Assembly (NCBI GenBank): GCA_027460525.1
Contig: JAPZAS010000015.1
Location: 124,001-188,000 of the forward strand
Source of the DNA: Candidatus Methanoperedens sp.
GTDB lineage: Archaea > Halobacteriota > Methanosarcinia > Methanosarcinales > Methanoperedenaceae
DNA: 64,000 nucleotides
Direction of reading: 5' to 3'
A model generated the notes under the pieces. It saw only the letters and a program-made list of their open reading frames with translations. It did not search any database and had not been told where the DNA came from. Below, piece after piece: positions 15,888 to 40,116 of the stretch (within the stretch, counting starts at the first letter, position 1; each line of letters opens with the position of its first letter). The translations under genes and the position numbers were made by a program.

Positions 15888-17240
15888 CTATCGACTTGAG
15901 AAAAATTGACCAGTATATACCGTCCCGGTAGTACCCGCCGCCCAATTGTAGAATCCAGGTGCACTACTCTGATAGCCTCCACTGACCGATGAATAGAAAC
16001 CGCTGGCTGTATTATAGATGCCTCCACTGACCGAGGAAAAGTCACCGCTGGCGTTATTACCTCCGCCTCCACTGACCGATGAATAGAAACTGCTGGCTGT
16101 ATTATAGATGCCTCCACTGACCGAGGAAAAGTCACCGCTGGCGTTATTACTTCCGCCTCCACTGACCAATGAATAGACACCGCTGGCTGTATTAGAGTGG
16201 CCTGCACTGACCGATGCATAGTCACCGCTGGCTGTATTAGTATAGCCTCCACTGACAGATGATAGATAACCGCTGGCGTTATTACCTCCGCCTCCACTGA
16301 CAGATGATAGATAACCGCTGGCGTTATTACCTCCGCCTCCACTGACCGATGCAACGAGGCCGCTGGCTGTATTTTGGACGCCTCCACTGACCGATGCCAA
16401 GGGACCTGAAATATTATTATACCCACCAGCAACGAGACCACCATAACTCAAGTAATTATTATATTTGCCTAAAATCAGATTATTGGAGCCTGTTCTACTA
16501 TCACCAATTCCCCGAAGTTCGTTGTAGCCGATAATAAGGTTGCCAAGACCATTGACTGCACCGTCGGTACTGCCGCTTCCACTTTCTATATGGAGATTGG
16601 CGCCTCTAATATGTATATCATTTCCGGTACGTGTGACCCCTTGAAACGTTGATTGGAGCGTGGTTACATTCGCTTGAAGAGTAGTTACCTGTCCTTGGAG
16701 TGCAGTTATATCCCCTTGTCCTTGGAGTGCAGTTACTTGCCCTTGGAGCGTGGTTACATTCGCTTGAAGAGTAGTTACCTGTCCTTGGAGTGCAGTTACT
16801 TGCCCTTGGAGCGTGGTTACATTATTTTGAAGAGTAGTCACTTGCCCTTCGAGCGCAGTTTCTTGTCCTTGGAGCGTGGTTACATTATTTTGAAGAGTGG
16901 TTACTTGCCCTTCGAGCGTAGTTTCTTGTCCTTGGAGCGTGGTTACATTATTTTGAAGAGTGGTTACTTGCCCTTGAAGCGTAGTTACCTGCGTTTGAAG
17001 TGCATTGACTGTGTTGTTATCATAGAAACCTATAACAACGTCACTTTTTGAACACGGCTTTATTGGTGACGCTCCGCCATTAATATTATATAACGTGCCA
17101 TCATGGACTTTAAGGCATCCGGTAAACTGTCCAGGGTCTGCCAAAGCTGGAGTTGATACCAGAATAGCAAGCAACATTGGCATCAACAAACGCAAACTTC
17201 GTCTCTTTATTCTATTCTTCTTTCCATTTAAATTTTCCAT
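15888..17240 (-). CDS. YadA/Hia-like stalk-and-head surface protein
   Basis: A 450-residue secreted protein. After a basic N-terminus and signal peptide (about 17-35, ending STPALA) comes a short domain with two cysteines, then a coiled-coil stalk of exact heptads (VTTLQGQ, VTTLQNN, ETTLEGQ) of about 110 residues, then a domain with about ten repeats of roughly 14 residues such as SSVSGGGGNNASGD and SVSGGIYNTASGFY. These repeats match the left-handed beta-roll head of trimeric autotransporter adhesins and phage fibres. There is no outer-membrane barrel or other anchor, and the order is stalk then head. The start at 17240 is supported by AAAGGAGG 6 nt upstream. A role in attachment is inferred. 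Confidence 0.75.
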   Translation of the reverse strand: MENLNGKKNRIKRRSLRLLMPMLLAILVSTPALADPGQFTGCLKVHDGTLYNINGGASPIKPCSKSDVVIGFYDNNTVNALQTQVTTLQGQVTTLQNNVTTLQGQETTLEGQVTTLQNNVTTLQGQETALEGQVTTLQNNVTTLQGQVTALQGQVTTLQANVTTLQGQVTALQGQGDITALQGQVTTLQANVTTLQSTFQGVTRTGNDIHIRGANLHIESGSGSTDGAVNGLGNLIIGYNELRGIGDSRTGSNNLILGKYNNYLSYGGLVAGGYNNISGPLASVSGGVQNTASGLVASVSGGGGNNASGYLSSVSGGGGNNASGYLSSVSGGYTNTASGDYASVSAGHSNTASGVYSLVSGGGSNNASGDFSSVSGGIYNTASSFYSSVSGGGGNNASGDFSSVSGGIYNTASGFYSSVSGGYQSSAPGFYNWAAGTTGTVYTGQFFSSR

Positions 17241-17602
17241 ATGTTTTCCTCCTTTCTTCGAATATTTACTTTTCAGCAAGGCTCACCTACGGCTTGCCCT
17301 GTATCATTTCGCTCTTCAGCACTCAATTGATGCACTCACCACACCACCATGATGGCAAATCCCCCGTGCATCTCGGATTTTAAAGCGTGGTTTTACTACT
17401 TATCCATGACACAAATACTTTGATGCCCTCTTTTTTGATTGACAACATAACTGCCAAAATACCCAAGGAACGAAAGTATAAAAACTTTTTGAAATAATTC
17501 AAAAGATATGGTATATAGCGTAATAATAAATTGCAGTTTGATAAGGATAGCATAAACATAACTTCAATCGACCGTATTTATGGTAATATATTGCACATTG
17601 AC

Positions 17603-18265: not shown

Positions 18266-21094
18266 ATGCCCATGAACGTGTTCAGCCTGCTAAATCCCGG
18301 AATCCAGGATGCTTTAGCCAAGCAGGGATTTATTGCTCCCACCGAGCCGCAGATAAAGGGAATCCCGGCGGTGCTCGCAAAGGAACATGTGCTGCTTATA
18401 GCGCCCACAGGCTCGGGTAAAACAGAATCTGCCGTTCTTCCGGTATTTGACAGCATCATGCAAAAAAAGGAAGAGGAAAGACGCGGGATATCTGTCCTGT
18501 ATATCACGCCTCTTCGCGCCCTGAATCGCGATATGCTCTCGCGCCTTGAATGGTGGGGAAAAGAACTGGGTATAAAAGTGGCAGTCAGGCACGGGGACAC
18601 CACCTCTTACGAGCGGCAAAAACAGTCGCGCAAGCCCCCGGATTTTCTTGTCACAACGCCTGAGACGCTTCAGGTGATGCTCACAGGGAAGAGGCTCAGG
18701 AATAACCTCAAGACCGTTACGCATGTGATTGTTGATGAAGTGCACGAGCTTGCTTCTTCAAAGAGGGGCGCGCAGTTATCCATCGCCCTTGAACGACTGG
18801 TTGAAGTATGCGGCGAGTTCCAGAGGCTCGGTCTTTCTGCAACTGTGGGGAAACCCGATGATATAGCGCGTTTCCTTGCAGGAACGAACAGGAATGCAAG
18901 GGTGATTGAAGTGTCCCTTATAAAAAAACTGGATTTCAATGTGGTATGTCCAAAACCTGCATCAGCGGATTTTGAGTCTTCAAAAAAACTGATGTGCACT
19001 CCAGAGATAGCCTCGCATCTCCTTGTAATATCCGATATTGTGGCACAGCACAAATCCACCCTGATTTTCGTAAATACAAGAGAAGCGGCTGAAATGCTGG
19101 GTTCAAGGTTCAGGATGCTGGGAATCCCTATCGGCGTACATCACGGTTCACTTTCACGGGAAACAAGAATCGAGGCGGAAAATAATTTTAAAGGAGGTGT
19201 TCTTTCAGGACTTATCTGCACCTCTTCGATGGAACTTGGGATAGACATCGGCGACGTGGAGCATGTAGTCCAGTACATGTCCCCTCGCGAGGTTACACGC
19301 CTTATACAGAGGGTGGGGCGCGGCGGGCATCGGATAGGGGAGAGGTCAAGCGGGACAATAATCACTATAAGTGCGGACGATGCGGCTGAATCCTCAGCAA
19401 TCACACGGAGGGCAAAAGCAGGGAAGATTGAAACTATCGATATCCATGAGAACAGCACCGATACGCTTGCAAACCAGATCTGCGGGATGGCGCTTGATTT
19501 TAGCGAGATTTCAACTCCTGCCATATATTCGATAGTCAAAAGGGCTCACCCCTATCGTAATCTTAAAATCGAGATGCTGCGCGAGGTTATCAAGCAGTTA
19601 AACGATACCAGGCTTATACGCTTTGAGAATGATACGGTCAACAGGAAGAGGAGGACATGGCAGTATTTTTACGAAAACCTCTCCATGATCCCGGATGAGA
19701 AACGATTTGAGATATTCGATATAGTGAGCGGGCGGACAGTGGGAGCGCTTGACGAGGCGTTCGTTGTGGATTTTGCAGAAGCCGGCGCAGTTTTCATTGC
19801 AAAAGGCGAGATGTGGCGCATCATCGAGATAATAACAGAGAAAAGCAGGATAAAGGTGGAGCCGATAAGCGACCCGGGAGCGGATATCCCCAACTGGGTG
19901 GGCGAAGAGATACCCGTGCCTTACGAGGTGGCGCAGGAAGTAGGGAGCATAAGGAAGCGTATCCTGGAAAAAATTATACATGGTGAGAAACCAGAAAAAA
20001 TAACCGGGGATTTCAGAAACGAATATCCTGCAGATAGCGAAGCTGCACATGAGATTCTGGAGTTAATCCAGAAGCAGGTCAAGGCAGGTCTTACCGTGCC
20101 GACTAATGATACAGCGGTTATCGAACAGGACGGGAAGACAATCGTGCTCAACATCTGCGGCGGACATAAGGTGAATGAGACCCTGGGAAGAACGCTGACC
20201 TCACTGCTTGCAGCACGATTCGGTGCAAGCGTGGCAATGGAGATTGATCCGTACAGGATTAAGCTTGAGCTCCCAAGGATGCTGAATGCCGAGAAGATAA
20301 AAGAGCTGCTCCTGACTACAAGCCCTGACCACATCGAACCGATTATCGAGATGACCTTGAAGAATACCACGCTGCTCAAATGGAAGATGGTTCATGTGGC
20401 GCGGAAATTCGGCGCGCTGAGCAGGGATGTGGATTACGGGCGCATAAGCATGAAGAAACTGCTTGATGTGTTCGAGCACACGCCCATGTATGATGAAGCC
20501 GTGCGGGAGATATTCCACGACAAGCTCGATATAGCACGCGCTAGGGAGGCTCTTGGCGCGCTCCAGAGCGGGAGCATGAAGCTGGTTGTCCAGCCCACAA
20601 GCCCGATAGGCGAGGCGGGTTTCATGGGCGGCAGGGAGCTAATGGCGCCCGAGAGGGCGGACAGCTCAATTATCATGGCGCTCAAGAGCAGGATAATGAA
20701 CGACCATGTTATCCTTTTCTGCCTGAACTGCAAGAAATGGAAAGCCAAAAGGGTTGTCAACAACGTCCCCCAGGTTCCGGAATGTCCATTGTGCAGCAGC
20801 AGGCTGATCGCGGCACTCAAGCCCTGGGAGGAGGAGGAGATTAAGATTGTTAGGAAGCCTGATAGGGAAAAGACAGAGGAGGAGAGAAAAAGGACGGCGC
20901 GGGTTTATCGGAATGCCAACCTTGTGCTCTCACAGGGGAAGACTGCGGCGATTGCGCTTGCTTCGAGGGGGATTGGGCCTGAGACTGCTTCGAGGGTTAT
21001 TCGGAAGTTGAGGGAGGATGAAGAGGAGTTTTACAGGGATATTCTGATTGCCGAGAGGAATTATGCGAAGACGAAGAGGTTCTGGGATGTGTAG
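18266..21094 (+). CDS. lhr: Lhr-type superfamily 2 ATP-dependent helicase
   Basis: A large helicase-related protein acting on RNA or DNA duplexes in repair. Visible motifs: Walker A APTGSGKT (46-53), DEVH box (157-160), SAT (191-193), motif VI QRVGRGGHR, the Lhr winged-helix and core region, and a C-terminal zinc knuckle (CLNCKK and CPLC). At 942 residues it is full length. The last 60 codons ([18 protein letters not shown] to the stop) are duplicated twice downstream (21845-22033 and 22822-22929), each copy bordering a toxin-antitoxin module, so the present 3' end may have been replaced by an incoming element. Confidence 0.95.
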   Translation: MPMNVFSLLNPGIQDALAKQGFIAPTEPQIKGIPAVLAKEHVLLIAPTGSGKTESAVLPVFDSIMQKKEEERRGISVLYITPLRALNRDMLSRLEWWGKELGIKVAVRHGDTTSYERQKQSRKPPDFLVTTPETLQVMLTGKRLRNNLKTVTHVIVDEVHELASSKRGAQLSIALERLVEVCGEFQRLGLSATVGKPDDIARFLAGTNRNARVIEVSLIKKLDFNVVCPKPASADFESSKKLMCTPEIASHLLVISDIVAQHKSTLIFVNTREAAEMLGSRFRMLGIPIGVHHGSLSRETRIEAENNFKGGVLSGLICTSSMELGIDIGDVEHVVQYMSPREVTRLIQRVGRGGHRIGERSSGTIITISADDAAESSAITRRAKAGKIETIDIHENSTDTLANQICGMALDFSEISTPAIYSIVKRAHPYRNLKIEMLREVIKQLNDTRLIRFENDTVNRKRRTWQYFYENLSMIPDEKRFEIFDIVSGRTVGALDEAFVVDFAEAGAVFIAKGEMWRIIEIITEKSRIKVEPISDPGADIPNWVGEEIPVPYEVAQEVGSIRKRILEKIIHGEKPEKITGDFRNEYPADSEAAHEILELIQKQVKAGLTVPTNDTAVIEQDGKTIVLNICGGHKVNETLGRTLTSLLAARFGASVAMEIDPYRIKLELPRMLNAEKIKELLLTTSPDHIEPIIEMTLKNTTLLKWKMVHVARKFGALSRDVDYGRISMKKLLDVFEHTPMYDEAVREIFHDKLDIARAREALGALQSGSMKLVVQPTSPIGEAGFMGGRELMAPERADSSIIMALKSRIMNDHVILFCLNCKKWKAKRVVNNVPQVPECPLCSSRLIAALKPWEEEEIKIVRKPDREKTEEERKRTARVYRNANLVLSQGKTAAIALASRGIGPETASRVIRKLREDEEEFYRDILIAERNYAKTKRFWDV

Positions 21095-21101
21095 GGGGTT
21101 A

Positions 21102-21452
21102 TTATCTGGTAATTCCCAATTGAAAACTCAGTGCATCAATTATTTCCTGCTGTAAATCAAAATCTTCGATTATACCCAATTCTTTTATCAGACGTTTTTT
21201 ATCAAGAGTCCTTATTTGATAGCAAAGAACAATAGATTCCTTCTCAAGTCTTCCCGTATTGGCAGGCATTAAGACCTCATTCGGGTAAATCCTCCTTTCT
21301 GGCTTTCTTGATGTTATCGGAAGAACATTCACTACCGGTAGAATCTGGTTTATTTCTTCCTCACTTATTACCAGAACTGGACGAGTCTTTCCCTGTTCAG
21401 AGCCAACCACTGGGTCAAGATTGGCTAAGAATATATGCCACTTATACTGCAT
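21102..21452 (-). CDS. MazF/PemK-type endoribonuclease toxin
   Basis: A 116-residue type II toxin predicted to cut mRNA. The family signature is clear: MQYKWHIFLANLDPVVGSEQ, GKTRPVLVISEEEINQ, PITSRKPERRIYPNEVLM and LCYQIRTLDKKRL. It ends 7 nt from lhr on the opposite strand. Its antitoxin gene at 21459 lies just upstream with a 6-nt gap. Confidence 0.92.
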   Translation of the reverse strand: MQYKWHIFLANLDPVVGSEQGKTRPVLVISEEEINQILPVVNVLPITSRKPERRIYPNEVLMPANTGRLEKESIVLCYQIRTLDKKRLIKELGIIEDFDLQQEIIDALSFQLGITR

Positions 21453-21458
21453 CTTCGT

Positions 21459-21701
21459 TTAATATCCTTCTAAATCGACAGAATTGAAGTCATCAGATAT
21501 TTCTTTCATATCTTCGAGAAAGAGTTTATCTTTAGTAGCATTTTTTAATTCTCTAATTTTTTGTTTGAAACTATCCTGCCTGTTTTTCATAATTAAAATC
21601 ACTTCTATTGTTTCATTTTCAGGAATATCCTTTGGAACCTTTATCCTTATCTCATGGTCTTTAGGTATTCTAACAATTTGTTTGACTGCTTCCAAAACCA
21701 C
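21459..21701 (-). CDS. antitoxin paired with MazF-like toxin
   Basis: An 80-residue protein. The N-terminal half has beta-strand character (VRIPKDHEIRIKVPKDIPEN, IEVILIMKN) like AbrB/MazE-related or DUF104-type antitoxins, and the C-terminal half is an acidic, flexible toxin-binding tail. The GTG start at 21701 overlaps a GGAGG ribosome site, so TTG two codons later may be used instead. Position before the toxin gene is the standard TA order. Confidence 0.75.
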   Translation of the reverse strand: MVLEAVKQIVRIPKDHEIRIKVPKDIPENETIEVILIMKNRQDSFKQKIRELKNATKDKLFLEDMKEISDDFNSVDLEGY

Positions 21702-21844
21702 ATTCCTCCATTATTTTTCATTTGCGTAACCATTTCGTGTCCGAAATCAAGTCATCTTTGCATATTGCAGCACGCTTTATACTATAATCTCTTTTCATTA
21801 TATATGAAACTTAACAAAAAAATACTGATGATAGAACTGCCTGA

Positions 21845-22033
21845 CTTTACCGTAATGCGAATGTCGTGCTCTCGCAGGGGAAGACTGCGGCGATTGCGCT
21901 TGCTTCGAGGGGGATTGGGCCTGAGACTGCGTCGAGGGTTATAAGGAAGATGAGGGAAGATGAGGAGGAGTTTTACAGGGATATTCTGATTGCCGAGAGG
22001 AATTATGCGAAGACGAAGAGGTTCTGGGAGTAA
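21845..22033 (+). pseudogene. duplicated 3' end of lhr, copy 2
   Basis: 62 codons homologous to the lhr C-terminus, from [18 protein letters not shown] to KTKRFWE and a stop. Over the last 150 bp only about seven bases differ from lhr itself, several of them silent. The frame is blocked by TGA immediately upstream. It lies after the MazF module and before a vapBC relic. It cannot be a working gene; it marks the old end of lhr before insertion or a recombination scar. Confidence 0.9.
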
Positions 22034-22066
22034 GTGATTTATGGACGGTGGTCATGAAGTGTTATC

Positions 22067-22274
22067 ATGGAGCTTATAAAATTTAAGAAGAAGTTTAAAA
22101 AATCATATTTCGGAGCTTTTCCTGGACTAAAGGAATTTGACAGGCACGAGGGAGATGACGACCGTACTGACGATCCATCGTTTCCGCGACTGCAAAAAAC
22201 GAAGCTGCAAGGCTCATGACAGGCGACCCCCGCATTTTAAATGCGTGAAGGATGTCGTATATCTGGGGAAGTGA
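22067..22274 (+). pseudogene. decayed vapBC toxin-antitoxin remnant
   Basis: From the ATG at 22067 the sequence reads MELIKFKKKFKKSYFGAFPG and LKEFDRHEGDD, resembling the C-terminal tail of an archaeal VapB antitoxin. From 22174 another frame reads SIVSATAKNEAARLMTGDP, then after a frameshift near 22230 HFKCVKDVVYLGK and stop at 22274, which is the C-terminal part of a PIN-domain VapC. The toxin N-terminus is missing. This is an internally deleted and frameshifted module just upstream of hicBA. Confidence 0.7.
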
Positions 22275-22286
22275 GAGTTGTAAGTA

Positions 22287-22299
22287 AAGTATAATACTT
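22287..22299. promoter_or_regulatory. palindromic candidate operator before hicBA
   Basis: AAGTATAATACTT is a perfect palindrome (6-bp arms, one central base) about 85 bp before hicB and overlapping a TATA-like sequence. HicB antitoxins often autoregulate through such sites; the site is inferred only from symmetry and position. Confidence 0.35.
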
Positions 22300-22383
22300 A
22301 TGGTACACTTTTGGAGGACTGCCTGTGCATATTGAAATGCAAATCTATTTAACGAATCGGAACGATACATTTCAGTGAGTTAT

Positions 22384-22620
22384 ATGGATTTTACAGCAAT
22401 CATCAGAAAAGGTGATAAGCAGTTTGCGGCTCTGTGCCCGGAAGTAGATGTTGTAAGCCAAGGTTATACGATTGAAGAGGCGCTTAAAAATCTCAAAGAA
22501 GCTGTAGAGGTCTATATTGAGGAGATGGGCTTTCCTGAAGAGATAGCGCCTGAAGATACCGTCATAGCTCATTTTGAGGTGCTGTCCCATGGGGAAGCTG
22601 CCCGTCCTGTCAGGGCGTGA
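22384..22620 (+). CDS. hicB: HicB-like antitoxin (module 1)
   Basis: A 78-residue antitoxin with the partially degraded RNase H fold of HicB: FTAIIRKGDKQFAALCPEVD, VVSQGYTIEEALKNLKEAVE. A GTG at 22375 would add three residues; the ATG at 22384 gives the usual start. The 3' end overlaps hicA by 32 nt, indicating translational coupling. Gene order antitoxin-toxin is reversed relative to classical hicAB but common in archaea. Confidence 0.85.
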   Translation: MDFTAIIRKGDKQFAALCPEVDVVSQGYTIEEALKNLKEAVEVYIEEMGFPEEIAPEDTVIAHFEVLSHGEAARPVRA

Positions 22621-22819
22621 AGTTATCAAGGCTCTTAAAAAAATTGGCTTTGAACCTGCAAGGCAGAAAGGCTGCCATATTGTTCTCGTCAGAGTGGTTT
22701 CGGATTCCAAGCGGGCTGTTGTTGTTCCAAACCATAAGGAAATCGACCCGGGAACGCTGCTTGAGATTATCAGGCAGGCGGGTTTGAAGAGGGATGAGTT
22801 CGTGAAATTGCTGAAGTAA
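22589..22819 (+). CDS. hicA: HicA-like mRNA interferase toxin (module 1)
   Basis: A 76-residue double-stranded RNA-binding-like toxin starting at MGKLPVLSGREVIKALKKIG. The catalytic His lies in RQKGCHIVLVR, where the family usually has G-S/N-H; here the preceding residue is Cys. It ends with the typical LLEIIRQAGLKRDEFVKLL helix. The lhr copy 3 starts 3 nt after its stop codon. Confidence 0.87.
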   Translation: MGKLPVLSGREVIKALKKIGFEPARQKGCHIVLVRVVSDSKRAVVVPNHKEIDPGTLLEIIRQAGLKRDEFVKLLK

Positions 22820-22821
22820 TT

Positions 22822-22929
22822 GAGACTGCCTTGCGTGTGATTGGGAAGCTGAGGGAGGATGAGGAGGAGTTTTACTGGAATATGCTGATTGTTGAGAGGA
22901 ATTATGCGAGGACGAATAGGTTCTGGGAG
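22822..22929 (+). pseudogene. duplicated 3' end of lhr, copy 3 (more diverged)
   Basis: 36 codons homologous to the end of lhr ([18 protein letters not shown] to ARTNRFWE), but with more changes than copy 2 and with the stop codon lost, so the frame runs on to 22960. It begins 3 nt after the hicA stop. Greater divergence than the 21845 copy suggests an older event. Confidence 0.85.
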
Positions 22930-23022
22930 TGGGGTTTGAGGATTGTTATTAACAATTAGAGAATTAAAACTTACGATATATTTATCAACTATAGAATTAA
23001 TGATTTAGACAGAGGGATAAGT

Positions 23023-23732: not shown

Positions 23733-23751
23733 TTCAAATACCACAAGTTCT

Positions 23752-23826
23752 GCGCCGCCCCCATCTCATCCCGCAGCCCCCGCCGCAGGGAAGGCGCGCC
23801 GCCCATGCGCTCTCAAAGGACGGCGC
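23752..23826 (-). repeat. GC-rich TA-island repeat R1
   Basis: A 75-bp G+C-rich element bordered by GCGCCGCCC and GGACGGCGC, near-inverted ends. It shares a core (CGCAGGGAAGGCGCGCCGCC, then CTCAAAGGACGGCGCCGA) with 24331-24408 and 25151-25236. Read on the minus strand it aligns with the C-terminal coding end of vapC genes via the 26174 copy. It lies between the membrane gene and hicBA module 2. Confidence 0.7.
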
Positions 23827-23866
23827 CGATTCATAGCAACCTTAATAAGTACATATACGCAAAATA

Positions 23867-24073
23867 ATGACCATGAAATTTAAAGTCGTTATCACAGAAG
23901 GCGAAGACGGCTGGTACGTGGTCGTGGTTCCTTCGCTTCCGGGCTGCATTTCTCAAGGAAAGACAAAAAAGGAAGCCCTTGAGAACATAAAAGAAGCCAT
24001 AGAACTCTACCTTGAGCCTGAAAATGACTTTCTCTCCATGGGCACAGGCCAGGTAGCTGAGGTAACGGTTTGA
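23867..24073 (+). CDS. hicB: HicB-like antitoxin (module 2)
   Basis: A 68-residue HicB-type antitoxin: FKVVITEGEDGWYVVVVPSL, PGCISQGKTKKEALENIKEA, IELYLEP. Its end overlaps the TTG start of hicA by 4 nt. It is not close in sequence to the module 1 HicB, so this is a separate acquisition rather than a tandem copy. Confidence 0.9.
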   Translation: MTMKFKVVITEGEDGWYVVVVPSLPGCISQGKTKKEALENIKEAIELYLEPENDFLSMGTGQVAEVTV

Positions 24074-24294
24074 AGTTGCCAGTTATTTCTGGAAAAGAAG
24101 CAATAAAAGCATTGGAGAGGGCTGGATTTGTTATAGTCAGGCAGAGGGGAAGCCACATCAGGATGAAGAAAGTTACATCTGAAGTCGTGATTAAAATAAC
24201 CGTTCCTCTTCACGATACTCTTGACAGAGGAACCCTTAAGAGCATAATAAGAAGCGCAGGTCTAACTGTGGAAGAGTTCGTTGAATTGCTTTAA
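24070..24294 (+). CDS. hicA: HicA-like mRNA interferase toxin (module 2)
   Basis: A 74-residue toxin with the complete HicA pattern: LPVISGKEAIKALERAGFVI, VRQRGSHIRM with the catalytic His, then VPLHDTLDRGTLKSIIRSAG and LTVEEFVELL. The TTG start overlaps the hicB stop (TTGA). Confidence 0.92.
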   Translation: MKLPVISGKEAIKALERAGFVIVRQRGSHIRMKKVTSEVVIKITVPLHDTLDRGTLKSIIRSAGLTVEEFVELL

Positions 24295-24330
24295 AAATTG
24301 ATATTCTGTAGCACAAATCTGTAAGCACCT

Positions 24331-24408
24331 GCGCCGTCCCCAGCACCCTGCCCCGCAGCCCCCGCCGCAGGGAAAGCGCGCCGCCCATGCACCCTCAAAG
24401 GACGGCGC
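24331..24408 (-). repeat. GC-rich TA-island repeat R2
   Basis: 78 bp bounded by exact inverted ends GCGCCGTCC and GGACGGCGC. The core is nearly identical to R1 and R3. Its left flank (CACAAATCTGTAAGCACCTG) closely matches the left flank of R4. It sits just past the 3' end of the vapC gene at 24443, in the orientation expected for a leftover vapC 3' end. Confidence 0.75.
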
Positions 24409-24442
24409 CGATTCGGGAATAAACCGGCACCGAAAGCTCTGG

Positions 24443-24838
24443 TCACTTTTTATCTAAAAAATCCTCAAACCTTCCGGCACCCGCGCTGCACTCAATCGCT
24501 CGATCAAGCAGCTTTTTATCCTCGGTTACAAGGACGTCCTTCATTGAAATTGATGCATAGAGGTACGATGCATCATAGTAGCTCAAATTGTTATCCACCG
24601 CTACCTTGAGAACTTCATTCTTGATCCCGATTTTTAAAATCTCCATCAAAGAAATGACCTTCGAGATAAATTTTATCAATTTTGCTCCTTCGCTTTCTGA
24701 TATTTTCTTTCTTGTAACCTCTTTCCAGACCACGTTCCCAAGCTCATAATGCGCTAAATCCAGAGTTTTTCCTTCCAGCAGCTTATTAAAAGCTCCAATT
24801 TCTATAGCTCTATAAATGGAACTGGCATCATAAATCAT
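24443..24838 (-). CDS. PIN-domain ribonuclease toxin (VapC-like)
   Basis: A 131-residue PIN toxin, a metal-dependent RNase. Acidic active-site residues are visible: Asp4 (MIYDAS), Glu32 (HYELGNVVW), Asp89 (YYDASYLYA) and Asp107 (VTEDKKLLDRA). The C-terminus reads ECSAGAGRFEDFLDKK; relics of this same tail are recognisable in the repeat family of the island. The start overlaps the upstream antitoxin stop by 4 nt. Confidence 0.9.
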   Translation of the reverse strand: MIYDASSIYRAIEIGAFNKLLEGKTLDLAHYELGNVVWKEVTRKKISESEGAKLIKFISKVISLMEILKIGIKNEVLKVAVDNNLSYYDASYLYASISMKDVLVTEDKKLLDRAIECSAGAGRFEDFLDKK

Positions 24839-25059
24839 CTCTCTCTATCCTCCCGAATTGATTTTGCAACCTGTTCGCTCTTGATTTTATTGATAATTGG
24901 TTTTAGTAATTCTGATTCTTTTTTGAGGTTCATAATCTCGAATTTTTTAATTTCATTCTGTATCGCTTTTCTTATAACTTCGGATGGTTTTATTCCATAC
25001 TCTTCAATTTTATGCTTGACTTCTCTTGGTATCTTGGCTGAAACAGTCGTATAATCCAT
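24835..25059 (-). CDS. ribbon-helix-helix type antitoxin (VapB-like)
   Basis: A 74-residue protein with an N-terminal RHH DNA-binding segment (TVSAKIPREVKHKIEEYGIK, PSEVIRKAIQNEI) and a charged C-terminal helix that should bind the PIN toxin. It precedes and overlaps vapC. A strong palindromic operator covers its start codon (25059-25088), consistent with autoregulation by the RHH domain. Confidence 0.88.
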   Translation of the reverse strand: MDYTTVSAKIPREVKHKIEEYGIKPSEVIRKAIQNEIKKFEIMNLKKESELLKPIINKIKSEQVAKSIREDRER

Positions 25060-25088
25060 ATATGTAGTTATTATATGTAATACATATA
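25059..25088 (-). promoter_or_regulatory. operator for the RHH antitoxin operon
   Basis: A perfect 17-bp palindrome TATATGTAATACATATA (25072-25088) plus a further half-site TATATGTA (25059-25066) spaced 5 bp away. The block is directly upstream of the vapB ATG and overlaps the promoter, as expected for cooperative RHH dimers. The sites are read directly; the binding is inferred. Confidence 0.65.
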
Positions 25089-25150
25089 AAGATTACTAAA
25101 TGTAGTAACAACCTGAACTATTTCACGTGCTGAGAAACATTCGAACTCAT

Positions 25151-25236
25151 TCGCCCTCCCGACTCCCTCCATGCGCCCCGCCCGCAGTCTCCGCCACAGG
25201 GAAGCGCGCCGCCCACGCGCACTCAAAGGACGGCGC
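25151..25236 (-). repeat. GC-rich TA-island repeat R3
   Basis: About 86 bp with the core CAGGGAAGCGCGCCGCCCAC and ACTCAAAGGACGGCGCCGA shared with R1 and R2, and a degenerate left end (TCGCCCTCC). It lies between vapBC and the UPF0175/PIN module, in the same orientation as the other copies. Confidence 0.7.
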
Positions 25237-25332
25237 CGACACGGACTGAAACGCCTGATACAAGTACCAAAATCTGTCTGTTTGAGAAGCTATTTAAAGT
25301 CTCGAATCCAAATGTAACAGTGTGATACATAG

Positions 25333-25641
25333 ATGCCGGCATCGGAAACCATAAGCGAAGAAATAGATATACTCGTAAAAAAGGGATATTATCCATCCAG
25401 ATCTGATTTATTAAAGGATGCCTTTCGAACACTGTTGAACACAAAAGCTGAGTTGAAAATCTCTTTAGCCATCGAACTCTACCTGAAAGAAAAAGTATCC
25501 CTTGCAAAAGCAGCAGAGCTTGCAGGCATGACCACAATAGAATTCAAGGAAGTTCTGGCAGGAAGGGGAATAATAAGGGAAACCGAAGGAAAATCTGTTA
25601 AAGAAATAGATAAAAAGTTAAAAAAACTGGGGATTGCGTGA
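25333..25641 (+). CDS. UPF0175-type antitoxin with N-terminal RHH-like segment
   Basis: A 102-residue protein. The N-terminus (ETISEEIDILVKKGYYPSRS, DLLKDAFRTLL) resembles a ribbon-helix-helix DNA-binding unit; the middle (IELYLKEKVSLAKAAELAGM, TTIEFKEVLAGRGI) is the UPF0175 helix-turn-helix motif. It overlaps the PIN gene by 4 nt. An imperfect palindrome TGTAACAGTGTGATACA at 25313-25329 just before the ATG may be its operator. Confidence 0.85.
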   Translation: MPASETISEEIDILVKKGYYPSRSDLLKDAFRTLLNTKAELKISLAIELYLKEKVSLAKAAELAGMTTIEFKEVLAGRGIIRETEGKSVKEIDKKLKKLGIA

Positions 25642-26123
25642 TATTCTTTGCCGACACCGATATTCTTAGCGCATTTGCAAAAGCTGGTGCAATAAAGTAC
25701 CTGAAACAACTATGTGCAGATTTGAAAATATCGCCTGCTATTTATGAAGAACTTGTGCGCGCAAAGCATGCTGGGTATTCTTTTGTATATGAGATTATTA
25801 CTAACGTTGAGATTATTCTTCTCACGGAAGAAGAATACAAAAGTTTCAAAAATCTTCTGGAAAGCAGGAAAGACCTGCATGAAGGCGAATGCCAGTTGAT
25901 TGTATTATGTACATCAAGAAATGGTATCCTGCTTACGAATGATAAAGCTGTAAAAAAATATTGCAACAAAAACAACATCGATTTTCTGGATTTGGAGGAA
26001 ATCCTCAGGGCTTTGAAATTGAGAAAAATCCTGAAACATGAGAAATTAAAAAAACTTATTGAAGATATTGAAAAGAAAGATTTGACAATAATAAAATCGA
26101 AGGAGGATATTCTTGGAGATTGA
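25638..26123 (+). CDS. PIN-domain toxin, DUF3368-like
   Basis: A 161-residue PIN nuclease partner of the UPF0175 antitoxin. Acidic residues appear at DTDIL (6 and 8), ISPAIYEELVR, LHEGECQLIVLC and LLTNDKAVKKYC. UPF0175 plus PIN/DUF3368 is a known pairing. The start is a GTG overlapping the antitoxin stop. The C-terminal 40 residues are lysine-rich and helical. Confidence 0.87.
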   Translation: MIFFADTDILSAFAKAGAIKYLKQLCADLKISPAIYEELVRAKHAGYSFVYEIITNVEIILLTEEEYKSFKNLLESRKDLHEGECQLIVLCTSRNGILLTNDKAVKKYCNKNNIDFLDLEEILRALKLRKILKHEKLKKLIEDIEKKDLTIIKSKEDILGD

Positions 26124-26173
26124 TGCTTCATTTCCCCTGAATAACTGATACTCACTTATTATTGAAACGTCCC

Positions 26174-26241
26174 CAAATCCATAAGCCCCTGCGCCGCACC
26201 CAAGCGCCTGTCCAGCAGCTTCCTCCGTCACAAAGAAGCGC
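26174..26241 (-). repeat. GC-rich TA-island repeat R4, recognisable as a vapC 3' end
   Basis: On the minus strand this reads FFVTEEAAGQALGCGAGAYG, aligning with DVLVTEDKKLLDRAIECSAG of the vapC at 24443. At DNA level the segment CAAGCGCCTGTCCAGCAGCT matches the vapC end with substitutions and short gaps. Its left flank and first half also align with R2, linking the whole repeat family to vapC tails. Confidence 0.6.
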
Positions 26242-37902: not shown

Positions 37903-38022
37903 ATGCCCGTTACTAAAACACGCGCACTCCTCATCGCAGGCACAGGCAGCGGCGTGGGGAAAACCACAGTCGCGCTCGGCATGATTGCGCGCCACCACCA
38001 GGAAGGCTTACGTTCTATTTAA
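37903..38022 (+). pseudogene. duplicated 5' end of cbiA
   Basis: A 39-codon frame (MPVTKTRALLIAGTGSGVGK, TTVALGMIARHHQEG) that copies the P-loop start of cbiA. A stretch of about 52 bp from 37921 is identical to 38798 onwards, then similarity fades after about 30 further bases. The TumA/TumE-like module lies between this fragment and intact cbiA, mirroring the lhr tail duplications at the other TA island. Confidence 0.88.
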
Positions 38023-38067
38023 AGCCTGTCACAAAAGTTAAATAAGAATGCCGGCATAAAATGAATC

Positions 38068-38343
38068 ATGGATGTTGCTATTTCCGAAGATGTGGCGCCT
38101 GTGATAAAGGACTCGATTCACAGAGAGATTTTACTCTTAGAGTCTAAGATAACTTTGGTGAAAAATGAAATAAAGCAGTTCGAAGAAAAGTATCATTTAG
38201 CCTCACCCGAATTCCTGAAGAAGTTCGAAAAGGGAGACCTTGGGGATTCACAGGATTATTTTGAGTGGTGGGGACTGATAAAAGGTCTTAAGACGCTGGA
38301 AGAAAGGCTGAACAAGGCTAAAGCGGTGAGCACTTATTGGTAG
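38068..38343 (+). CDS. TumA-like putative antitoxin
   Basis: A 91-residue helical protein (DSIHREILLLESKITLVKNE, IKQFEEKYHLASPEFLKKFE, YFEWWGLIKGLKTLEERL). Proteins of this kind often precede TumE/DUF6516 toxins. It overlaps the toxin by 7 nt. Antitoxin role is inferred from pairing. Confidence 0.72.
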   Translation: MDVAISEDVAPVIKDSIHREILLLESKITLVKNEIKQFEEKYHLASPEFLKKFEKGDLGDSQDYFEWWGLIKGLKTLEERLNKAKAVSTYW

Positions 38344-38717
38344 TTGCTGATTATTTTAAAACAGTAGAGCGATTGTTGAGCAACTCCAAGCTCATTGTAG
38401 ATAAAACAGTTGATTTTAAAGAATTCAGCAGCGATGAAGGTATGGCAAGAGGGCGGCTATTATTCTTGGGCGGATACGTGCTTACGTTTATGGAGTACAT
38501 CCAGACAGGAAAAGAGCGACTCAAGTATAGATTCAATCTCACTGATGGTAAAGGCAATATGATTTTTAGATACGATAATGCCGCTCACCATAAGGAAGAC
38601 TATACTTACCCGCACCACAAACACGTAAGCACCGGGGTCAAACCTTCAAAAGAGATCGGACTCGCTGAAGTTTTGTCCGAGATTGAGAGCATGATATTAG
38701 CCAAATTTGAGAGTTAA
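38337..38717 (+). CDS. TumE-like (DUF6516) putative toxin
   Basis: A 126-residue protein with the TumE pattern: YVLTFMEYIQTGKERLKYRF, NLTDGKGNMIFRYDNAAHHK, YTYPHHKHVSTG and an acidic C-terminal helix. The HH-rich YPHHKHV is the family hallmark. It begins with TTG, overlapping the upstream gene, and ends 55 nt before cbiA. Confidence 0.78.
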   Translation: MVVADYFKTVERLLSNSKLIVDKTVDFKEFSSDEGMARGRLLFLGGYVLTFMEYIQTGKERLKYRFNLTDGKGNMIFRYDNAAHHKEDYTYPHHKHVSTGVKPSKEIGLAEVLSEIESMILAKFES

Positions 38718-38772
38718 ATTTCATGGCTGCTCAAAGGTTTAGCTTATATCTCTTCATGCTTATTTCTATGCG

Positions 38773-40116
38773 ATGACATCCGCCAAAACTCGCGCACTCC
38801 TCATCGCAGGCACAGGCAGCGGCGTGGGGAAAACCACAGTCGCAATGGGTTTGATGGCAGCGCTCAGCAAAAAGTACAAAGTCCAGCCCTTCAAGGTCGG
38901 ACCCGATTTCATCGACCCCTCCCACCACACACGCATATGCGGTCGCCCTTCAAGGAATCTCGACAGCTTCATGATGGGAGAGCGTGGAGTGCTTGAGATA
39001 TTCAAACGAGGCTCGCAGGGCGCTGATTTTTGCATAATAGAAGGGGTGATGGGTCTTTTTGACGGGCTTGATTCCACAGAAGTTGCAAGCACAGCCCATG
39101 TTGCCAAGATTCTGGATGTACCTGTTGTGCTGGTTGTCAATGCACATGGAGTCTCGCGCAGCATTGCCGCTGTTGTCAAGGGTTTTAGCGAATTTGACAG
39201 CGTCAATATTCAGGGAATAATCCTCAATAACACGGGTGGCAGCAGGCATGTTAAACTTATAATGGATTCGCTGCACAGCGCAGGCATCAAAATTCCCGTC
39301 ACAGGAGCGCTTCCAAGAAATCCTGAATTATCAATCCCTTCGCGACACCTTGGTCTTCACATGGCAGGTGAAAGCAGCCAGAATATAGTGGTGCTGTCAG
39401 AGTTTATTGAAAAGCATATCAACATGGAATCGGTAAAAGCAATAGCAAGCAACTTCAGCTCGCCAGATGTCGCTCTAAACGAGCCTGAGGAAAGATTCGA
39501 TGCCAGAATAGGCATTGCCCAGGACAGCGCCTTTTGTTTCTATTACCAGGATTCGTTAGATGCCCTCAAAAGTCTGGGAGCAGAGCTTGTTTTTTTCAGC
39601 CCGATGAGCGACGAGCTGCCGGAGGTGGACGGCATTTATCTCGGAGGAGGGTATCCTGAGCTATATGCGCGTGAACTTGAAGCCTCTCCAGCCCGCCGAC
39701 AGATTAAAAAAGCAGCAGATGACGGAATGCCGATATACGGAGAATGCGGGGCGCTGCTGTATTTGAATGAAAGTCTTGAGACTGACCGAAGTTATAAAAT
39801 GGCAGGCGTTCTTGGGGCAAGTTCAAGGATGACCGATAAGCTTGCTGCGCTCGGTTATACAGAGGCTGAAACCACAGCCGACTCGCCCATTGCACTGAAA
39901 GGCAAAATAATCAGGGGGCATGAGTTCCACTATTCGGTAACAGATAGCGACAGGGATGCGCATTATGTTTATAAACTGAGGCGAGGAAAAGGGATTATCG
40001 CTGGGAAGGATGGTCTGCTCGAGCATAATACCTTGGCAAGCTACATGCATACCCATCCAGCCTCGAATTCGTTTGAAGAGTTTTTACAACATTGCAGTAA
40101 ATATAGATCACGATAG
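38773..40116 (+). CDS. cbiA: cobyrinate (or Ni-sirohydrochlorin) a,c-diamide synthase
   Basis: A 447-residue ATP- and glutamine-dependent amidase of the CbiA/CobB family. The N-terminal P-loop GTGSGVGKTT (residues 12-21) and the C-terminal glutaminase with nucleophile Cys in GECGALLYL and HEFHYS are present. Two close paralogues exist in methanogens: CbiA for cobamides and CfbB for coenzyme F430; sequence inspection alone does not decide. Nearby cbiD/cbiE favour cobamide synthesis. Its 5' end is duplicated at 37903. Confidence 0.9.
   Translation: MTSAKTRALLIAGTGSGVGKTTVAMGLMAALSKKYKVQPFKVGPDFIDPSHHTRICGRPSRNLDSFMMGERGVLEIFKRGSQGADFCIIEGVMGLFDGLDSTEVASTAHVAKILDVPVVLVVNAHGVSRSIAAVVKGFSEFDSVNIQGIILNNTGGSRHVKLIMDSLHSAGIKIPVTGALPRNPELSIPSRHLGLHMAGESSQNIVVLSEFIEKHINMESVKAIASNFSSPDVALNEPEERFDARIGIAQDSAFCFYYQDSLDALKSLGAELVFFSPMSDELPEVDGIYLGGGYPELYARELEASPARRQIKKAADDGMPIYGECGALLYLNESLETDRSYKMAGVLGASSRMTDKLAALGYTEAETTADSPIALKGKIIRGHEFHYSVTDSDRDAHYVYKLRRGKGIIAGKDGLLEHNTLASYMHTHPASNSFEEFLQHCSKYRSR

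Follow-up and report, generated by a model that had tools for sequence, protein, structure and literature searches.

How do chromosomal toxin–antitoxin (TA) modules that carry no mobility gene spread between genomes? The nearest described parallels come from other systems. Elements that integrate into the 3′ ends of protein genes leave a replaced gene end whose boundary lies at the stop codon, as with phage 21 and e14 in icd, where the newcomer brings a replacement end. In integron gene cassettes, small modules stand in arrays with repeats between them, and many of the modules are TA modules. Restriction–modification (RM) systems insert with long target duplication (Nobusato 2000; Furuta 2010, summarised in PMC3874152). 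Toxin–immunity displacement arrays of Rhs, contact-dependent inhibition (CDI) and type VI secretion (T6SS) systems have been explained by homologous and homology-facilitated illegitimate recombination (PMC5361080, PMC3150448), and the one-sided, homology-facilitated illegitimate form has been proposed for those of Vibrio (PMC5361080). Here we describe an archaeal locus against this background: in a 64,000-nucleotide stretch of the methane-oxidising archaeon Candidatus Methanoperedens sp. (hereafter the window; GenBank assembly GCA_027460525.1, contig JAPZAS010000015.1, positions 124,001 to 188,000), the 3′ end of lhr, the gene for a large helicase-related protein, is present three times with TA modules between the copies. 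An original prediction, drawn from the sequence alone, took this as repeated insertion at one gene end that supplied a replacement 3′ end. We find that the lhr locus is a site of recurrent insertion and exchange at a gene end, not one old tandem duplication, because cargo and the number of tails vary among relatives and the site is cleanly empty in one of them. It is also one of many such cases in the genome, and the prediction had one locus of a genome-wide pattern.

The lhr gene end and its displaced copies

The gene's own 3′ end (tail 1, 20904–21087) and the first displaced copy (tail 2, 21846–22029) are 92.9% identical (E ~1e-73), rising to 96% over the last 150 bp; the original prediction had about 60 end codons recurring twice, with ~95% identity over those 150 bp in the first recurrence and more divergence in the second, and this was borne out, with small corrections to the limits of the copies. 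The third copy (tail 3, 22821–22928) is 86% identical to 20980–21087 (E ~1e-29). The similarity of tails 2 and 3 to the lhr end far exceeds chance. The duplicated part of lhr is ~190 bp long in tail 2, on whose left side degenerate homology extends back to about 21830, and ~108 bp long in tail 3; a search of the window genome (G000; 2.44 Mb, 37 contigs) found no lhr tail copies beyond these three. Homology stops at TTCTGGGA, the last lhr codons, and the sequence after each tail is unrelated; the tail copies therefore stop at the stop codon. Profile searches and tblastn also agree with the predicted cargo (Table 1): a convergent mazEF module lies between tails 1 and 2, and a vapBC relic and an open hicBA module—its reading frames uninterrupted across 22375–22819—lie between tails 2 and 3. 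The relic directly follows tail 2, and intact orthologues occur in the relatives G027, G010, and G001. TA family labels come from profile searches only, and TA function is predicted; the MazE label follows from the position of the gene and from its being kept alongside MazF in relatives, without a family match. General open reading frame (ORF) and Pfam scans, with no search aimed at integrases, recognised no integrase-like gene among the ORFs between the tails.

How variable is this gene end among relatives? The lhr end was matched in 44 of the 60 relatives searched; those named here are Candidatus Methanoperedens. Additional tails follow lhr in G001, G005, G006, and G027, remnants are found in G013 and G010, and two genomes (G018 and G021) carry an additional tail at a second locus, adjoining a DUF362-like gene. 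The order is lhr-mazEF-tail in both G005 and G006, lhr-vapBC-mazEF (decayed)-tail remnant in G027, lhr-mazE-tail remnant-vapBC in G010, and, in G001, lhr-mazEF-tail-mazF relic-cupin-vapBC-tail and, farther on, a vapBC of a second type. In G025, lhr is an empty site that runs into GTAGGGGATTATACTTTGGAAAAAAG... and a 172-aa gene; the same DNA stands after tail 2 in G005, with mazEF intervening. Both outcomes for which relatives were to be checked, empty sites and other TA cargo, were thus found, and a set of three copies with identical cargo is not common to the relatives. In the arrays of G000 and G001 the gene body stays constant, and each new module is followed by displaced 3′ fragments. The junction between mazE and tail 2 is homologous in G000, G001, and G006, and the left boundary of tail 2 is alike in MazEF cassettes. 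Away from lhr, a mazEF module in G015 (L080, 898–2061) has a 46-bp direct repeat on both sides and adjoins a relative of the short-chain dehydrogenase/reductase gene found downstream of the window lhr.

Homologous recombination that moves TA genes, an option raised in the original prediction, is directly supported by a mosaic in G006. The body of its lhr is 90–91% identical to those of G010, G016, and G025 and 83% identical to that of G026, while its 3′ end is 92–93% identical to G026. Walking along informative sites, alleles of the native clade (G010/G016/G025) continue to about lhr position 2470 and are then mostly G026-like; in tail 2, donor alleles occupy columns 80–140 and native-clade alleles return from column 166 to the end. 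The mazFE genes of G006 and G000 are 95% identical, whereas the lhr bodies are 78% identical. From these allele switches and this difference in identity, we conclude that an exchange brought in foreign DNA that begins late in lhr, spans mazFE, and ends in tail 2. One crossover fell in lhr and the other in tail 2, which acted as the right-hand homology arm.

Which of the two copies is foreign? Over the last ~50 bp, the displaced tails of G005 and G006 are closer to the native lhr end of relatives than the gene-attached ends are, in line with the predicted replacement of the 3′ end by a newcomer. In G005 there is a single switch, the intact tail matching relatives in the 5′ part and the displaced tail in the 3′ part. 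An unrelated 410-aa gene of G006 also has one switch: the intact copy is native and then diverged, and the displaced copy is native at the 3′ terminus. Three cases (lhr in G006, lhr in G005, and the 410-aa gene) therefore contradict the idea that both repeat copies come from the recipient; in the lhr of the window, the informative sites favour neither side. In a maximum-likelihood tree of the tails, the displaced tails form one clade in 0% of bootstraps, at least two changes are forced, and tail 2 of G000 groups with tails 2 and 3 of G001 in a supported clade (96/90). The tree rejects a single ancient clade of displaced tails, and the tails do not cluster as a simple ancient tandem duplication. 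The order of events, which the prediction had hoped to read from the differing divergence of the copies, is not readable, because recombination has made mosaics of the tails and tail 2 clusters with displaced tails of G001. As a side observation, the YRDILI codons (tail columns 166–178) occur in several genomes in strongly different synonymous forms, patchily distributed among species, and it is in this stretch that G005 and G006 have one form in the gene-attached tail and another in the displaced tail.

Duplicated gene ends around TA modules in Methanosarcinales

How common are TA modules between repeated gene ends? A scan of G000 for direct-repeat pairs, covering 1.51 Mb (62% of the genome), returned 38 direct-repeat loci outside single genes, many of them at gene ends and part of them holding non-TA genes. 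Most of the families that Pfam searches recognised among the 106 ORFs inside the pairs were TA families (HicA, UPF0150/HicB, PIN, ParE, nucleotidyltransferase/HEPN, DUF433, TumE, CopG antitoxin, AbiEii, and PemK); no integrase was recognised among the top 25 families, again with no search aimed at integrases. The interiors make up 3.9% of the scanned sequence and 11% of its ORFs of 60–200 aa, and 14 of 29 HicA, PIN, HEPN, and PemK toxins lie inside direct-repeat pairs, usually of a host gene end (binomial P about 1e-12). A family search found six HicA in the scanned part, all inside such pairs. Beyond this genome, HicA loci have flanking direct repeats in 10/23 cases in Methanoperedens and 9/22 in other Methanosarcinales, compared with 24/250 and 18/200 random positions (pooled P = 8e-8) and with 4/69 and 0/66 mismatched flanks. 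The second set of random positions was drawn from lhr loci of other archaea, including a few halophiles. The TA units measure 0.4–3 kb and the repeats about 45–450 bp. No larger elements of 3.5–90 kb flanked by a gene-end duplication were found in the scanned 62% of G000.

The edges of the duplications follow the edges of genes. Among duplications assignable to an intact gene of 150 aa or more, nearly every one of the 3′ type ends within 10 bp of the stop codon, with identity falling to ~20–40% in the 40 bp outside; C16:83430 is a weak exception, and other genomes hold counter-examples, such as the L297 repeat, which runs 73 bp beyond the stop codon. Duplications of the 5′ type begin at about +45 to −55 of the start codon, and several take in upstream DNA. 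A sharp edge at the stop codon would be expected if the gene-attached end and the TA module came together from a donor that had both adjacent.

Other target genes have cargo of their own. At the 5′ end of cbiA/cfbB, G000 has a TumE module (37904–40116 of the window, target gene included), G025 has another module between two 5′ ends, G010 has the G025 module and a VapBC-like pair, and G001 is empty. In LFW-280_4 (L108, 2802–5471), the 3′ end of a lysA-type decarboxylase gene is duplicated (91%, 120 bp) around a VapB-like and DUF3368 pair, and in another family (L327) the 3′ end of a 265-aa gene is duplicated (188 bp, 97%) around hicBA. Among further observations, L067 (G013:C233, 439–5249) holds four 5′-end fragments of a UvrD/PcrA-like helicase gene between small genes, an array of displaced gene starts, and its small genes include a mazE with an lhr-tail remnant. 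Two long arrays in G000 (C17:59696–64766 and C16:23300–27800) interleave many repeat copies with TA genes, like the lhr array and larger. Downstream of the lhr array, at 23750–26227, consecutive hicBA, vapBC, and UPF0175-PIN modules are bracketed by a repeat of about 60–85 bp (R), of which three copies are good and a fourth is weak; R also adjoins TA genes in G001, G025, G010, G007, and G016. A parent gene of R was not found in a search of the genus; R was found only downstream of lhr or near TA genes, in a few relatives. Upstream of lhr, at 15888–17279, lies a repetitive ORF resembling surface proteins, with 45-nt and 21-nt repeats. Left out of the TA count were several large direct repeats that belong to paralogous or repetitive genes, among them those at 44–49 kb and 51–57 kb of the window, and a 61-bp repeat (98%) of part of a 162-aa gene in G015 (L048, 4699–5235), beside a reverse-transcriptase-like gene.

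Table 1. Gene ends, repeats, and TA genes of the window (window coordinates)
Feature	Position	Strand	Evidence or remark
lhr, 942 aa, target gene	18266–21094	+	Pfam DEAD, DEAD_assoc, WH_Lhr; tail 1 is its 3′ end
mazF-type toxin gene (PemK/MazF family)	21102–21452	-	PF02452, 6.2e-27
Antitoxin gene in mazE position	21459–21701	-	tblastn: kept with mazF in G001, G005, G006, G015, G017, G013; no Pfam match
Tail 2, displaced lhr 3′ end	21833–22033	+	BLAST and repeat search; best homology as in text
vapBC relic: VapB residues 30–66 (78%), VapC residues 99–128 (53%)	22061–22263	+	tblastn with intact G027 VapBC
hicB-like antitoxin gene	22375–22620	+	Weak Pfam matches HicB_like and DUF7387, below curated cut-off
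hicA toxin gene, likely ATG at 22589	22574–22819	+	PF07927, 3.2e-19
Tail 3, second displaced lhr 3′ end	22821–22930	+	86% to tail 1; begins directly after hicA stop codon
R1, copy of second GC-rich repeat bracketing the next TA modules	23750–23832	+	87–90% to R2/R3
Second hicBA module, between R1 and R2	23867–24294	+	PF15919, PF07927
R2, repeat copy	24329–24414	+	Repeat search
vapC/vapB-like module, between R2 and R3	24443–25059	-	Orthologous pair in G001, G033; weak NCBIfam VapB match below cut-off
R3, repeat copy	25181–25239	+	Repeat search
UPF0175/ribbon–helix–helix antitoxin and probable PIN-type toxin	25333–26123	+	PF03683, 1.1e-13; PF17723, 1e-6; toxin by position, without convincing family match
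Displaced 5′ end of cbiA/cfbB	37915–37992	+	90% to 38785–38863
TumE toxin gene and upstream gene in antitoxin position, between two cbiA 5′ ends	38068–38717	+	PF20126, 7e-19; NF045777, 1e-15, below cut-off
cbiA/cfbB, cobyrinate/Ni-sirohydrochlorin a,c-diamide synthase, intact target gene	38773–40116	+	TIGR00379, 3.8e-146

Proposed homology-driven spread and its rivals

How might modules of this kind enter a gene end without an enzyme of their own? We consider it reasonably probable that homology-driven recombination spreads TA modules along with a host gene end that they have captured and that the founding insertion displaces the native end. Small TA modules without a mobility enzyme would adjoin a host gene end, and incoming DNA made of that end and the TA module would be taken up via homology to the gene. 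On one side, the join would be a homologous crossover within the gene; on the other, at the first insertion, it would fall within the recipient's own gene end, shifting the native end beyond the TA module as a spare tail, and the host gene would receive an intact donor end and stay functional. Once a spare tail exists, it could serve as a second homology arm: two ordinary crossovers would move the TA module and tails into any lhr end, whatever lies downstream, and different TA modules could stack. For the founding step, we infer one-sided, homology-facilitated illegitimate recombination and not a site-specific or nuclease-driven event, and TA addiction probably favours retention of the cassettes. 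The best-supported part is exchange by homologous recombination in which the gene body forms one arm and the displaced tail the other, as seen in G006.

With the Rhs, CDI, and T6SS arrays, the lhr locus shares a constant gene body, newcomers that push old 3′ fragments downstream, and a homologous crossover inside the anchor gene (in G006, near the position given above). It differs in that the housekeeping gene end is merely a homology anchor and the cargo consists of intracellular TA modules of many families; in place of a toxin that is the C-terminal domain of the anchor gene, followed by its immunity gene, there are unrelated MazEF, VapBC, HicBA, TumE, and other modules.

Several points weigh against homology-driven spread. 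The founding event is not among the cases observed, all of which may descend from older ones. The stop-codon exactness of the outer boundary exceeds what one-sided recombination alone explains, and the first adjacency of gene end and TA module is left unaccounted for. The polarity evidence comes from few sites, and informative sites in the window's own lhr tails split 1:1. No flanking repeat was detectable for 15 of the 29 tested toxins, the toxin families of the first enrichment test were picked after the cargo lists had been seen (hence the second test, on HicA in other genomes), and the genomes compared are mostly metagenome assemblies.

An unlikely but still serious rival is long target duplication, in which some enzyme would make cuts in the two strands at gene ends, staggered by tens to hundreds of bases, the TA module would be inserted, and fill-in would duplicate the native end. 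Many addiction modules here are flanked by long direct repeats and empty sites exist; RM systems with target duplications of ~100 bp have been described (PMC3874152). RM insertions and the present cases have in common an addiction-type gene pair without a mobility gene of its own, long and variable direct repeats of the target on both sides, and unduplicated empty sites (G025 for lhr, G001 for cbiA). The present cases differ in being archaeal TA modules, their repeats are tied to gene ends, crossovers are mapped in one of them, and, where testable, it is the gene-attached copy that is foreign, the end of the displaced copy being native. Long target duplication predicts a drifting displaced copy and a stable intact copy, but the reverse holds over the 3′ terminal part in G005 and G006; with random cuts, it would also be unexpected for copies 94–96% identical to lose homology at the stop codon. 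Long target duplication fits the anatomy of these loci but not their polarity in the testable cases.

Could the TA modules instead be all that is left of integrative elements? An element with a tyrosine integrase would have entered lhr (and likewise other genes) at the 3′ end, brought a replacement for that end, and later lost everything except the TA genes. TA modules resist deletion, and the gene-end duplication, the gene-attached end derived from the newcomer, and the boundary at the stop codon are as in the icd integrations. The present loci nevertheless differ from phage 21 and e14 in their cargo of only 0.4–3 kb and in their many target genes, with 5′ as well as 3′ ends used, and no integrase was recognised between the tails in scans that were not aimed at integrases, nor any larger element in the scanned part of the genome. 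The same lack of a recognised integrase, under the same limit, sets them apart from integron cassettes, as does the nature of their repeats, which are locus-specific host gene ends and not shared attC-type sites. The link to integrative elements or a helper enzyme, raised in the original prediction, found no support in these scans, and we regard relics of such elements as decidedly improbable.

Ancient tandem duplication of the lhr end with neighbouring TA genes, followed by vertical inheritance and differential loss, would account for the clade of G000 and G001 tails and for the homologous mazE-tail junction in G000, G001, and G006. It is very improbable as a full account, which is contradicted by the tail tree, the mosaic of G006, the differing cargo, the empty site of G025, and the recurrence of the pattern at genes and with TA families that have no relation to one another; for G000 and G001 alone, shared descent is possible. 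An assembly artefact of metagenome binning at repeated sequence, to which contigs of several relatives that stop shortly after the lhr tail might point, is hardly credible, as lhr-mazEF-tail 2 was assembled in four separate genomes (G000, G001, G005, and G006) and the junctions agree in three.

Possible gene-end cassettes in archaeal genomes

A literature search, with subscription papers outside its reach, found no report of archaeal TA modules with gene-end duplications. On the reading favoured here, the cassettes add a new, archaeal form to the insertions by long target duplication and gene-end displacement that have been described for RM systems and Rhs/T6SS toxins. We would tentatively extend homology-driven spread to the order as a whole: chromosomal TA modules of Methanosarcinales may be recombinase-free mobile cassettes that use a captured gene end as a homology arm, enter and displace gene ends while leaving the gene intact, and spread and stack by homologous recombination, and this may be the main route of such TA modules in these archaea. 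Within one archaeal order, the pattern recurs in several genera and with several TA families, and it is testable at scale. Displaced gene ends are preserved scars, which mark insertions, can tell which copy is foreign, and allow crossovers to be mapped; a displaced gene end can also serve to find TA modules, those of unknown families included.

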